DNA from: Crambe crambe
Taxonomy: Eukaryota > Porifera > Demospongiae > Poecilosclerida > Crambeidae
Direction: 5' to 3'
NCBI GenBank assembly: GCA_963924555.1
Contig: OZ004583.1
Location: 5,117,501-5,181,500 of the forward strand
DNA: 64,000 nucleotides
Below, in pieces: positions 15,864 to 39,546 of this stretch. A program made the translations under genes and the position numbers. The notes under the pieces are model-generated. The model saw only the letters and a list, made by a program, of their open reading frames with translations, did not search any database and was not told the origin of the DNA. Numbering within the stretch: the first letter of the stretch is position 1; every line of letters begins with the position of its first letter.

Positions 15864-16285
15864 ATTTGGGATGGCATCCTCTTTTGAACGTTCCCGACAT
15901 ATGGTTCTTGAATACTTGGTATTCATCACCCAGGAAGGTTAAAACAACTGTTCTGTATGTTCTAGTTCAGTGGTAGCCATATGCAGGGGCCCAACAGACT
16001 TGATAATCTGTAAAATTTATCTCCATTGTAGGTCGTGCACGCACACAAAAATTGTACCACAGCTTGTAAATGACCCACTCAGTCGCATGATGTCAGCAGA
16101 CAGTACCCTCCGCATGACTCCTCCTCTCGACACGTCTGTGGTTTCATCGGAATTGAACACGGCGTGTTCTTGTCAGTAAACAGCGAAAGTAACTATTCTT
16201 CTGCAAAAGTATGTAACTGGCTTGTATAATGGCGATTACCATTGATTTGACCGCAGCACTTCAGCAAGTCCCGCAGAAACACGGA

Positions 16286-16452
16286 GGCTTCCATTTGTTA
16301 TCGACATGAGTGCTGTGATTGCATATATTGTGGGCCGACTCTCGTGTGTGGCCATGAAAAACTCCACCCCCGTCTGAAAATAATGCGATTCTCTAGTTGG
16401 CGACAATCTTAATTGGCAATCACAGCACTCATGTCGATAACAAATGGAAGCC
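16286..16452. repeat. Inverted repeat with perfect 36-bp arms
   Basis: 16,286-16,321 (GGCTTCCATTTGTTATCG start) and 16,417-16,452 are exact reverse complements separated by 95 bp. Copy B has the same structure at 31,513-31,548 and 31,644-31,679 with one substitution in each arm at non-paired positions. The RNA would fold into a stable hairpin. Confidence 0.92.
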
Positions 16453-16565
16453 GGGCTAGGGATAGGGCCTCCATAACATTCACTCTAACCACCTTTAAGA
16501 AATTATGTGGTCACTTTGTAGTGGCTCAGTTCGTCACAACCAGAACATAATATCATCTTGCTCAG

Positions 16566-16640
16566 GGTCTGGATGTGTTGGAGATAATGAGACACATCCA
16601 CGTGTTTGTCACCAGATACTGCTACAACCTCAACAACCAG
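16566..16640 (+). pseudogene. WASHC4: WASHC4 (SWIP)-like exon fragment
   Basis: A 75-bp exon between a CTTGCTCAG acceptor and a CAG/GTAAGG donor encodes 25 residues, [14 protein letters not shown] then [11 protein letters not shown]. This matches the conserved [29 protein letters not shown] stretch I recall from WASH complex subunit 4, an endosomal actin-regulation subunit. No adjoining WASHC4 exon is recognised on either side, and the next exons found (16,834-17,490) run on the opposite strand, so this looks like one exon carried out of its gene. Splice sites are intact. The same exon is in copy B. Confidence 0.7.
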
Positions 16641-16833
16641 GTAAGGTCAGGTTTCAATGAGTGTGGCATGGCAGGGCTGCTCACCCCATCCCCCTTCTGT
16701 CCCTCCCACTTTCCTCACCCCATATACCCACTTCTGAGAAAATAAATTTACCCTGCATTTCTTGTTTTCATGCTGACAAGAAAGAGGGGAGGGTTAGAAG
16801 CTCAATATCATTATTAGTGGGAAACATACTCAC

Positions 16834-35232: not shown

Positions 35233-35619
35233 TTCCTGGTCTTTTTTTCTTTGAACAGTAGCTTTTTAGTGTTGAAGTTAGGCAGATAAACCCTCGTTGA
35301 ATCTAAGCTAGCTATACGCATGGCTAGCTACACGAGCAAGATAATTATGCGCATGGATTTTGTAATTCAATTATTAAAATTTATTATAATTATTAATTTT
35401 ATAATTACTATATAAAGAATATAGGTCTTTTTGTTCTGCAATGAAGATGTATTATCAGGACATCATAATAATGACTCAATCATGACTTGCAACTTACATT
35501 TATAAATAATGTTTATTTTACTTCCATAGACTGCACATATGAAAATAATTGTTATGAAATATTCAATGTACAGTGTATACATCATAACTTACATTTGAAT
35601 GTATAGTAAGGATTCCTCC

Positions 35620-36160
35620 TTCCACCCCTCCTTCCTCTTCCTCTTCCCCTTTCTGTTCCACCTCCTCTTCTTCCTCTTATTCCTCTTCCTCCTCTTCCCC
35701 TTTCTGTTCCACCTCCTCTTCTTCCTCTTATTCCTCTTCCTCCTCTTCCCCTTTCTGTTCCACCTCCTCTTATTCCTCTTCCCCTTTCTTCTCCTCGTCC
35801 TCTTCCCCTTCCTGCTCCTCCTCCTCTTCCCCCTTCTGCTCCTCCTCCTCTTCCCCCTTCTGCTCCTCCTCCTCTTCCCCCTTCTACTCCTCCTCCTCTT
35901 CCCCCTTCTGGTCCTCCTCCTCTTCCTACCCCTCCACCTCTTCCCCTTTCAATTCCTCCTCCTCCTCCTCTTCCCACTTCTGCTCCTCCTCCTCTTCCCC
36001 CTTCTACTCCTCCTCCTCTTCCCCCTTCTGGTCCTCCTCTTCCTACCCCTCCTTCCACCCCTCCACCTCTTCCCCTTTCAATTCCTCCTCCTCCTCTTCC
36101 CATCACTCCTACTCCTCCTCCTCCTCTTCCCATCCCTCCTTCCACTCCACCTCCTGGGTA
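35620..36160 (+). repeat. TCC/CTT-rich minisatellite
   Basis: Over 500 bp of pyrimidine-only sequence on this strand, built from variants of CCTCCTCCTCTTCCCCCTTCTG. It yields long frames on both strands (Gly/Arg/Glu-rich and Leu/Phe/Pro-rich) that are composition artefacts. It is private to copy B. Confidence 0.92.
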
Positions 36161-37317
36161 CCCTGCAATTGACGTGAAGTTGTAGTCATGGAGAGAGTTT
36201 TTTAGTTAAATAACCCCCTCTTCCCCTCACACCTTTCAATTCCCCCCTCCCCCACATCAATGCCCACCTCTTCCCTCCCTACAATCTAACTTGGACATTT
36301 TCACACAGTTATAGTAATGCAAATTTTTTTGTGATAGCAGTTAATGGCATGAAATGAATTTTTTGCACAGACTTACCTATTATCATTGGTTCTATATTAT
36401 TATCACCTGTGAGAGTTAAAATCATTAAATGTTATCAATAGAATAGCATGCATTAGTTCATATACAGTAGACCCTCACATAATTATCCTGTTATAGTTGC
36501 TTTGATTATCCTGTCTATACTAATTTACATGCATGTTTGCATTAAGTATAGGGTACATCTTGCAGACCACTACAGCTACTGCAACATTACTTAGATCCAT
36601 ATGGGTAAGCACCCAATCCCCAATGCAAAGATAACCAAGTTATTATGATAGCTGTACAGTATGCATATTGTAGATAGCTCAGCATACCAGCATTGTTCCG
36701 ATGGTGATCCATCAGGTCATCTTCAAATTGAAAGAATAATGAAAGGATAATAATAATTATCACTAGCTCTGCACTGACAGTACTACTAGTACCTTTTATC
36801 TGTAGCTAAGTTAGGAGAGCTTATCAGTTAATAGGTAGCTAGCCTATGTTTTGTATCTAGTCTTACCAAATTCATATAATTCTTCTATATTTATCTGAAA
36901 ATGAAAGTTATAGGCAGTGAAATGTTAGCTGAAACTTGTAACACCAATTATTATATATGTCTTGCTAGCTAGCTAGTAAAACATATAATTATTTAGTAAC
37001 TCACACGGGTATCCATGACTTTATTTGCACATGTGTGAAGTCTGAATTCTGCACATGCGCAGATTGTATGCATGTGACATGATCTAATTAATCTAGCTAG
37101 ACACAGACAGGTGTTGTTTAAATGTTGCAATTATACCTGTTATTTTTGATACCAGTGACATGAATGGGATGTTACATAATAATTATGTGTAGGGTGCTAC
37201 TTCGATTATAGGATGTATAATAATGTGTACAAATGCGTGTATAGTAGCTTTGTTTCTTCATGGCCACTACAAGAATAGTGGAAGTAAAGGATTTTTTTTT
37301 TTATGAAATCTTTACTT

Positions 37318-39546
37318 CTAATTAACTAACACCTGATATTTACTTTTCACACCTGCCGAAAGTTCTCTCATCTCTTTCTGCCACAGTAGATAAAAGATGT
37401 ATCGAGGTTCTTTTCTGAAACGCGAGTCTTTGTTATACAGGCGAGACTTTACATACTCGCTGTGTGAAATTTTATGTTCGCGAGGATGATACTTTCCAAA
37501 ATTCCCATTTGGGAAAAGCATTGGAAAGCACATCACATCTAGGAACTTCTGACGATTATTCAAAGGATCTTCTTCCACACTTAACACTTTGTATTGTTCA
37601 ATATCAGAGCCAGTGGTTAACTTTTTATCCAAGGTCCTGATAGTGTAAGACTGGAAGCCAGCTATATCGTCATCAGTAGCTTTCTCTAGCATAGTACTAG
37701 TGGTGCTACTGACTGCTTCTATCACTTCCTTTAGAGTTGAGTGAATGGAATCGTCGTCAACTTCTTTGTACAGCCAGTTGATTTGTCTTTGTTTCCTTAC
37801 AGCTTCCATGATGTGGTTGACATTCACTAGATTGCGCCACACCACCTGGTTTTTGGTTGGCTTTCCATTGATAATGATGTACAGCTCTGGACTGGCCAGG
37901 GCAACATTGGGCTCACTTACCTGGTCCAGAGTCTGTAGAGTCTTCTCAAGAGGAAGCGGAAGGAAGAACATGGTGCCTTTGCATGCTTGAAGGGAATTGT
38001 ATGTAGGCACTTTAGCGGTGTAAGTACCTAGTCGCACGACTGTTTGATAAGACTTGGCACGCTGAATGAACTGCTTACTCAAGCAGTCTAATCTAGTCAA
38101 CTCAACTGGTATGGGAATCACTTCCAAACCATTGAGCACACAGCGTGGTGGCATCTTATTACTTCTAATTTTAGATTTGCAGTAGTTGCACATGAAGTGA
38201 GTGTCATCTGCAGCTTCTGGATTATCTTTTAACATGTATTGTTTCAATGCAGGCCACACATTGGTGCCTAATTTATCTGAGAATTTCACTCTAGTGATAT
38301 TCTTTCATTGTTGTAACTGCTGACAGGAACAACATATATTTTTTGCATAGTCAGCTATAGCCTGTTCATAATCGTTTATCAGTACAGCATGTGTAGTCAA
38401 AAGCTGCAGTTCTGAATGTGACTCTCGAAGTGCTGAGCCAGAAGAAGCACTTTGTAGATCTAGCTGATGAGAGCTTTCCAACTCATTGCTAAAGAGTGTT
38501 TTGAAATCTTCGATCTCACAGATTTTCATTATACTTTTGTAATCACCTGAGCCAAGCGCTTTGTCTATGTTAAAGACACACAAGTGGCTTCTAATGGCAC
38601 TGTACAGACTCCTCAAGAAGCTTCGTAAATACAGCGTAATGGGTAGATGCAGCTCTCAGTATTCTCAGCTGACTTTCACACCCACCACCATCAAGAAAAC
38701 ACACTAAGGGGTGACCTCTACGTTCTACTGACGAGTACAGAGTGTCAGAATGCTCATCAGTCACCACTTTGGTGAAATGTGTGTTTGGGCAACCATCATC
38801 ACACGTGTCTAATTTTTTTCGCACTTCGCGAACAGATTCCTCAAATTTCCTTTTTAGTAAAAGTATGGAATCCACTTCTGATTGAGTGAGAGGCTTACAA
38901 AAAGCGGAACACTTCCACTCTTTGTCATTTTTTTAACCCTTACCCTCACTCTCATCATAAAAGACACACCTTCCTGTCATATCTACATCCATGTGAGAGG
39001 GTGCATCCTTGATGAGGTAAGCAGCGTCATAATAGTAGGGCTCACTAGATGGCTTGTGTGAGCCTTCTCCAAAGTCACCATTCTGTTTAATTTCTAGATT
39101 ATTTATTGATCTGATGGTGTGTAATAAAGACCCTGCATATTGCTTACGTATTTGCAGTATCTTACTTAAGAGTCGTTTAGCTGCTATTTTTGAAACAACA
39201 ACTTTACGAATTGAACCTTTAAATTTTTTTTAACAGCTCTTCATCAAATGCATGAATGAGCTCATTTATTGCGATAGCATTACACAACAGTTTAGTATGC
39301 AAGGTATTGGCATATGATTTTCTTATATACAGTTGTGGCTCTGCTAACTCGTACCGGCCTCTCATATAAGCACACCTTTGGGCCCTGTGCTTATAATAAT
39401 ATTTCCTAGCACGCTTGAGAATACCCTTGGTACCAGTTTGAGCCTGTCTCAGAGGTCAGAGTTTATGAAAACTAGTGTGTGCAGGCAATGGCTTGTAGGA
39501 CTGGATGGGGTATATAAAGAGGTAGAAGCTTAGCTATACACATAGA
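37318..39546 (-). mobile_element. Truncated Helitron, copy B
   Basis: Same parts as copy A: TC start at 39,546 preceded on that strand by A, upstream coding region (broken), 103-residue and 323-residue frames (38,616-38,305 and 38,289-37,318), and the same end at YQVLVN. At the site where A has a private stop, B is open (CGA), but B has private indels near 38,930 and 39,200-39,230 in homopolymer runs. The stop between the 103- and 323-residue frames is shared. No HUH, helicase or 3' terminus is present. Confidence 0.72.

Follow-up and report, generated by a model that had tools for sequence, protein, structure and literature searches.

How can two young neighboring copies of one DNA segment be nearly identical in several blocks and carry unrelated DNA between those blocks? 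The question is raised by a 64,000-nucleotide stretch of the genome of the sponge Crambe crambe (assembly GCA_963924555.1, contig OZ004583.1, positions 5,117,501 to 5,181,500 of the forward strand; C5:5117501-5181500), hereafter the window. An initial annotation had described two 8-kb copies, here called A and B, that shared four near-identical collinear blocks separated by three replaced spacers (gaps 1 to 3). It had argued that decay cannot replace DNA on both sides of a duplication and had offered, among other options, a modular Helitron that swaps cassettes. We compared the window with itself and copy A with copy B by BLAST and searched the genome (143 Mb, 119 contigs). The pair is most likely an ordinary duplicated mosaic of transposons, including one block of Helitron DNA, in which the two copies carry overlapping deletions.

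Results

Three blocks were shared by the two copies. Over 1700 aligned bases, the two versions of block 1, located by BLAST at 15858-17570 in A and 31093-32792 in B, differed by 17 substitutions. Block 2 (17974-19161 and 33446-34602, also by BLAST) exhibited 14 in 1157, plus one 30-bp and one 1-bp gap, both in B, opposite A 18432-18461 and A 19053, respectively. For block 4 (20759-23884 and 36411-39546, minus strand), the alignment of 3120 bases contained 17 substitutions (BLAST gave 18), distributed over its parts as 7/926, 10/2076, and 0/118. These blocks were collinear, with an A-B divergence of 0.5 to 1.2% and a BLAST E value of 0, far above chance, and a 7.2-kb interval separated the two copies. 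No plus-strand pairwise similarity was detected between the spacers of A and those of B (word size 7, E ≤ 0.01). Blocks 1 and 2 occurred together only in A and B in a genome search for which all 21 candidates were scored. Block 1 was anonymous DNA in which, in A, a PHD-like fragment was detected under the Pfam cutoff (17254-17427, minus strand); Pfam gave nothing for 15649-15939. A perfect 37-bp inverted repeat pair (16286-16322 and 16416-16452) was also present in this block.

The remaining block, block 3, was of a different kind. In both copies (20279-20604 in A and 34911-35246 in B, minus strand) it consisted of a palindrome of ∼325 bp that was 93 to 94% identical to its own reverse complement in the window and gave self-matches on both strands. 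The A and B palindromes differed by 7.3% substitutions in an alignment of eight sequences and by 9.5% in a pairwise alignment, plus gaps. The eight sequences were A, B, two short units on contig C21, and the long-element copies on C11, C13, C5, and C9. The A palindrome was 2.4 to 3.1% from the two short units, and the B palindrome, which was 3′ terminal and of the long-element type, was 1.6 to 3.0% from the four long-element copies. Two groups were apparent, with distances of 0.6 to 3.7% for the 13 within-group pairs and 6.3 to 8.2% for the 15 between-group pairs, and A and B fell in different groups. Judged by this alignment, block 3 represents different subfamilies of the 3′ end of one Helitron family, and because the palindromes belong to two subfamilies, it is a pair of relatives rather than one duplicated block. 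As block 3 was not shared, gaps 2 and 3 form a single interval, and there are two replaced intervals in all. The initial annotation was thus correct about blocks 1, 2, and 4, about right for the spacer lengths, and correct that the spacers are dissimilar; a fourth shared block and a third replaced spacer were not upheld.

Block 4 was identified as Helitron DNA by a relative on C11. The open reading frames (ORFs) of block 4 at 21660-22631 (also delimited as 21660-22646) in A (minus strand) and 37318-38304 in B both encoded DUF6570, the sole domain found in the block 4 ORFs scanned. On C11, the block 4 sequence ran on as a long frame, with Helitron_like_N located within an open frame of 2461 amino acids. 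The two pieces composing this frame contained DUF6570, Helitron_like_N (PF14214, E = 4e-28), PIF1 helicase (PF05970, E = 5e-23), and OTU protease domains, so that the Rep domain Helitron_like_N and a PIF1-type helicase, by which a Helitron is recognized, were combined in one protein. The copies on C11, C13, and C5 and that at locus L045 had different flanks at the same palindrome edge, near which a small hairpin was seen by eye. The element runs from right to left in the window and terminates at the palindrome. The junction at 21690/21691 in A joined points ∼5.4 kb apart on C11, and the same 5.4-kb internal deletion, with an identical junction, was present at 37347 in B. This identity indicates that the deletion probably predates the duplication. 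Both window copies departed from the C11 sequence at 23766 and continued with a 118-bp tail (23767-23884) that was identical in A and B and absent from the C11 element. The last 61 bases of the tail (65 in A) resembled four C16 loci, of which L051 was read. Near the start of the C11 long frame (L039, L040), another frame contained a run of repeated IRLIQKRQ-type motifs.

The second replaced interval contained parts of a short nonautonomous Helitron unit. A search with 34500-35640 as the query returned 2027 first-look candidates, indicating a very abundant family; 40 of these were scored, giving 244 matches. In the array at L050 on C21, units of ∼829 bp were arranged head to tail, each consisting of the palindrome, ∼150 bp, ∼50 bp, and 316 bp ending in a microsatellite. 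L045 was a single short unit with the same order (palindrome and 150 bp, ∼50 bp, 316 bp). At least 47 of the matches listed ran uninterrupted from the 316-bp part into the palindrome, that is, across the point where neighboring units meet. Closely spaced short units were observed on several contigs, and such arrays of a Helitron unit ending in a palindrome are in themselves a modest lead.

Alignment with L050 and L045 revealed that A and B carry opposite halves of this unit. The 3′ half, comprising the palindrome and ∼150 bp, occupied 20279-20758 in A (minus strand), the sequence counted initially as block 3 and gap 3, and was 97.5 to 98.1% identical to two units in the L050 array. The 5′ half (∼316 bp) occupied 34603-34914 in B (minus strand), which is gap 2 of that copy. 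The cuts in A and B were located ∼50 bp apart within the unit, and at the B junction 4 bp were common to block 2 and the short unit. Gap 2 of A (19162-20278, 1117 bp) was seen only in A: a genome search returned no other match except one 51-bp piece. It ended in a Helicase_C fragment (20119-20278, minus strand) that was RecQ-like by eye. The 51-bp piece (19822-19872) was 86 to 90% like repeated sequences, many of which lay near contig ends (C3, C6, and C9 among others).

Gap 3 of B (35247-36410, minus strand) was the inner 3′ region of the Helitron and included a tandem array of variable length. In a genome search for the block 4 left edge, 40 of 98 candidates were scored. All four other loci found with this edge had B-type gap 3 DNA, and none had the A type; in L040, L041, and L043, the B-type sequence extended through to the palindrome with differing array lengths, and in L044 it extended for 34 bp. 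By this comparison, B's gap 3 is most likely ancestral and was lost from A. The initial annotation had proposed that further copies with the same interblock DNA would speak against a cassette-swapping element, and for gap 3 the same B-type DNA was what the other loci contained. As A has the 3′ half of the short unit and B the 5′ half, and as gap 3 is of the B type elsewhere, these results indicated that A and B had lost different parts of a longer ancestor.

A similar arrangement was detected in the right half of the first interval. In gap 1 of A (17571-17973), positions 17797-17951 matched a Mutator-like transposase gene at its N-terminal end (minus strand), positions 17630-17796 matched a family found on C20, and 17571-17629 had no match. 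In gap 1 of B (32793-33445), positions 33350-33445, beside block 2, matched the region upstream of the same gene. Both of the other loci containing the 17797-17951 sequence of A (L048 and L049) were on the same contig, and in L048 the gene matched PF20700 (E = 7e-65). In each, the A piece was followed by the B piece and then by the first 39 bases of block 2, in the same order and on the same strand, with 163 bp between the A piece and the start of block 2 versus 23 bp in A. Since L048 and L049 hold both pieces in series, A kept the first and B the second. Outgroups thus contain the private pieces of both copies in series, L048 and L049 in the case of gap 1 (right half) and L045 and L050 in that of gaps 2 and 3.

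At the left end of gap 1, L042 continued block 1 with 16 bases of the B version and then diverged, which indicates that the edge at 17570 in A is the changed one. A Helitron 3′ end had been considered at 17540-17565, where a small hairpin is followed by CTAG and where L012 ends at 17570; it was rejected because L042 runs on for those 16 bp with the B sequence. Six C20 loci matched 17630-17819 of A at 76 to 81%, and nothing else of A (15700-19300) or B (31000-34700) was found in the 3.2 kb read per locus. The 17630-17819 sequence had a fibronectin-type look by eye, and a Pfam scan of one frame (17566-17802) returned nothing. Gap 1 of B contained a 41-bp near-perfect palindrome (33299-33339; 98% to its own reverse complement).

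The outer edges of the copies were examined for the direction of duplication. The left edge of A ran on into the paralogue L048 as far as 15874, and at its right edge, A had 4 more bases in common with the C16 loci than B, beyond the B break. Copy B adjoined on its left an interspersed repeat whose right side was cut (29320-31092); this contained an ORF (29777-30784) that was gag-like by eye and had no Pfam hit. All four other copies of this repeat that were read (L055 to L058) continued beyond the break, so the left edge of B is a breakpoint. We had considered 31092 as a clean transposon end, since of 10 other matches 8 terminate at this point (query 593-597) and the remaining two at 574 and 245, and rejected this because the same four copies continue with common sequence. 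The right edge of B, also a breakpoint, cut into a different family that reached at least 5 bases further left in L060 and L061. As the A edges are continuous with L048 and the C16 loci and the B edges cut repeats, A is the likely donor and B the copy, on modest evidence from these sequences. Neither the left nor the right flanks of A and B were related to each other. Part of the right flank of B (40017-40760) was repeated at C5:5217304-5217832 and C5:5219243-5219451 (98 to 99%), a further local duplication.

Discussion

We consider it probable that a mosaic of transposons was duplicated and that each copy later lost different, partly overlapping stretches. The ancestral patch would have consisted of block 1, the edge of the Mutator-like gene, block 2, the helicase-like fragment, a short Helitron unit, and a long Helitron already lacking 5.4 kb, and it would have been duplicated locally, most likely with A as the source and B as the copy. 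In the second interval, A would then have lost the 5′ half of the short unit and the 3′ end of the long Helitron, and B would have lost the helicase-like DNA together with the 3′ half of that unit. In the right half of the first interval, the losses would have been ∼140 bp upstream of the Mutator-like gene from A and the N-terminal part of this gene from B. We infer both that these losses were deletions subsequent to duplication and the order in which they occurred, and breakage near the tandem repeats and the 325-bp palindrome may have favored them. The argument that decay cannot replace DNA on both sides fails when copies lose overlapping but different parts, and the outgroups hold the A and B pieces side by side. 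Insertions plus deletions, also listed initially, come close to this reading; overlapping deletions are supported by the outgroup order, and part of gap 1 of A may be an insertion.

Several observations weigh against this explanation. In gap 1, the left half lacks an outgroup holding both versions, the C20-like fragment could have been either inserted into A or lost from B, the account does not extend to the repeat-like sequence at 32793-33349 of B, and the agreement of L042 with B is limited to 16 bp. In the second interval, the A junction at 20758/20759 exhibited no microhomology by eye, and the complete ancestor (block 2, helicase fragment, short unit, and long element) was not found at any one locus. 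Divergence was lower in block 4 (17/3120) than in blocks 1 and 2 (31/2857; Fisher P = 0.02); this difference would not be expected after a single simple duplication and may reflect gene conversion or chance. Finally, in the 5′ part of block 4 the distance between C11 and A was 0.48%, the same as that between B and A, and private changes numbered 3 in A, 7 in B, and 7 in C11. As A is equidistant from B and C11, the 5′ part by itself gives no grouping of A with B. In the 3′ part, compared among five copies, two sites grouped A with B, two grouped the C13 and C5 copies, and one grouped C11 with C13. Such a pattern would be expected from gene conversion or from a recent burst of Helitron activity.

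Another possibility is that short units located elsewhere replaced the 3′ end of the A Helitron and the left part of that of B, through gene conversion or ectopic recombination. The great number of short units and the lower divergence of block 4 are consistent with such a process. However, the two copies retain complementary halves of a single unit, with the cuts ∼50 bp apart and beside block edges, an outcome that deletion from a tandem arrangement gives directly, and we regard replacement from elsewhere as unlikely. We also consider it doubtful that the long 3′ palindrome and head-to-tail arrays form a recurrent break site at which local duplicates are cut repeatedly and in complementary fashion.

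A misjoining of haplotypes or another assembly artefact is very improbable. Allelic divergence of ∼1% occurs in some animals, and the A-B divergence falls within that range; however, the flanks of A and B are unrelated on both sides and the B edges break into different interspersed repeats, and it is from the flanks only that this was judged. A rolling-circle origin, in which B would be a product of the A Helitron whose replication read through past the 3′ end and captured blocks 2 and 1, is scarcely credible. The copied segment does start in the Helitron block and extend past its 3′ end in the expected direction, but it starts in the tail that is absent from the C11 element and not at the 5′ end of the family. 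No empty site for B was seen in searches made with each flank alone; a search with joined flanks was not made.

To the initially proposed Helitron-like carrier exchanging cassettes between fixed blocks we attach almost no credence. A Helitron is present, as one block, and its relatives have varied 3′ structures. However, no further copies containing all blocks with new spacers were found: blocks 1 and 2 occur together only in this pair (all 21 candidates scored), other Helitron copies stop at the palindrome, short of block 2, and the four other loci found with the block 4 edge (40 of 98 candidates scored) all carry B-type DNA. Moreover, the junctions in both copies fall inside elements and not at element ends. 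It is also conceivable that one Helitron derivative inserted independently into each of two copies of blocks 1 and 2; we do not favor this, since among the matches listed the derivative with the tail was found only in A and B, where it lies close to block 2 each time.

Nested transposons are known to undergo local segmental duplication and, later, end-joining deletions. The A-B pair resembles the products of this process in having collinear blocks ∼1% diverged with different deletions and differs from them in nothing of kind, the overlap of the deletions being what mimics replacement. A replacement-like pattern between young duplicates can come from two overlapping deletions; here, the apparent strangeness arose because two subfamilies of a palindromic transposon end were taken for one shared block and because no more than two copies were being compared. 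Outgroups that hold both alternatives side by side should be sought before an exchange of modules is inferred.

The Helitron family itself was compared with known groups. Canonical type 1 Helitrons have 5′ TC and 3′ CTRR ends and insert between A and T. Insertion between A and T is also given for Helitrons in PMC5148889. The 3′ edge of the window family exhibited no clear CTRR by eye. The combination of Helitron_like_N, PIF1, and OTU in one long frame of the C11 relative resembles the Helitron2/Helentron group, and additional ORFs such as those for OTU proteases are described for Helentrons (PMC4067079). An AP endonuclease domain fused to Rep/helicase, as in Helentrons, was not detected at E ≤ 0.01 in the two pieces of the C11 frame; separate ORFs or exons were not searched. 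On these domains, the family would not be classed as Helentron despite the presence of OTU. Its 3′ palindrome is long (∼325 bp), unlike the short ones described in the passages compared. In keeping both sides of the 5.4-kb deletion, the window copies are similar to other internally deleted nonautonomous Helitrons. The short units are comparable in structure to the oyster Cg_HINE elements, HINE-type nonautonomous Helentrons with satellite-like repeats (PMC7492417), in being numerous, in forming head-to-tail arrays, and in having a microsatellite at the junction; unlike these, the unit here (∼829 bp) includes the 3′ palindrome.

Additional features of the window

An Rfam scan of the whole window gave 0 matches. 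To the left of copy A, a fragment of a DDE_1 transposase was detected at 13115-13816, which we take to be of the pogo/Tigger type. Other local duplicates were present. Two of these, 26922-27596/62003-62706 and 59131-59694/61718-62282, were single blocks. The third, at 45270-49186, consisted of blocks 92 to 99% identical with spacers of unequal length (390 versus 660 bp and 8 versus 114 bp), so that blocks with unequal spacers were observed in one of the three other local duplicates of the window.

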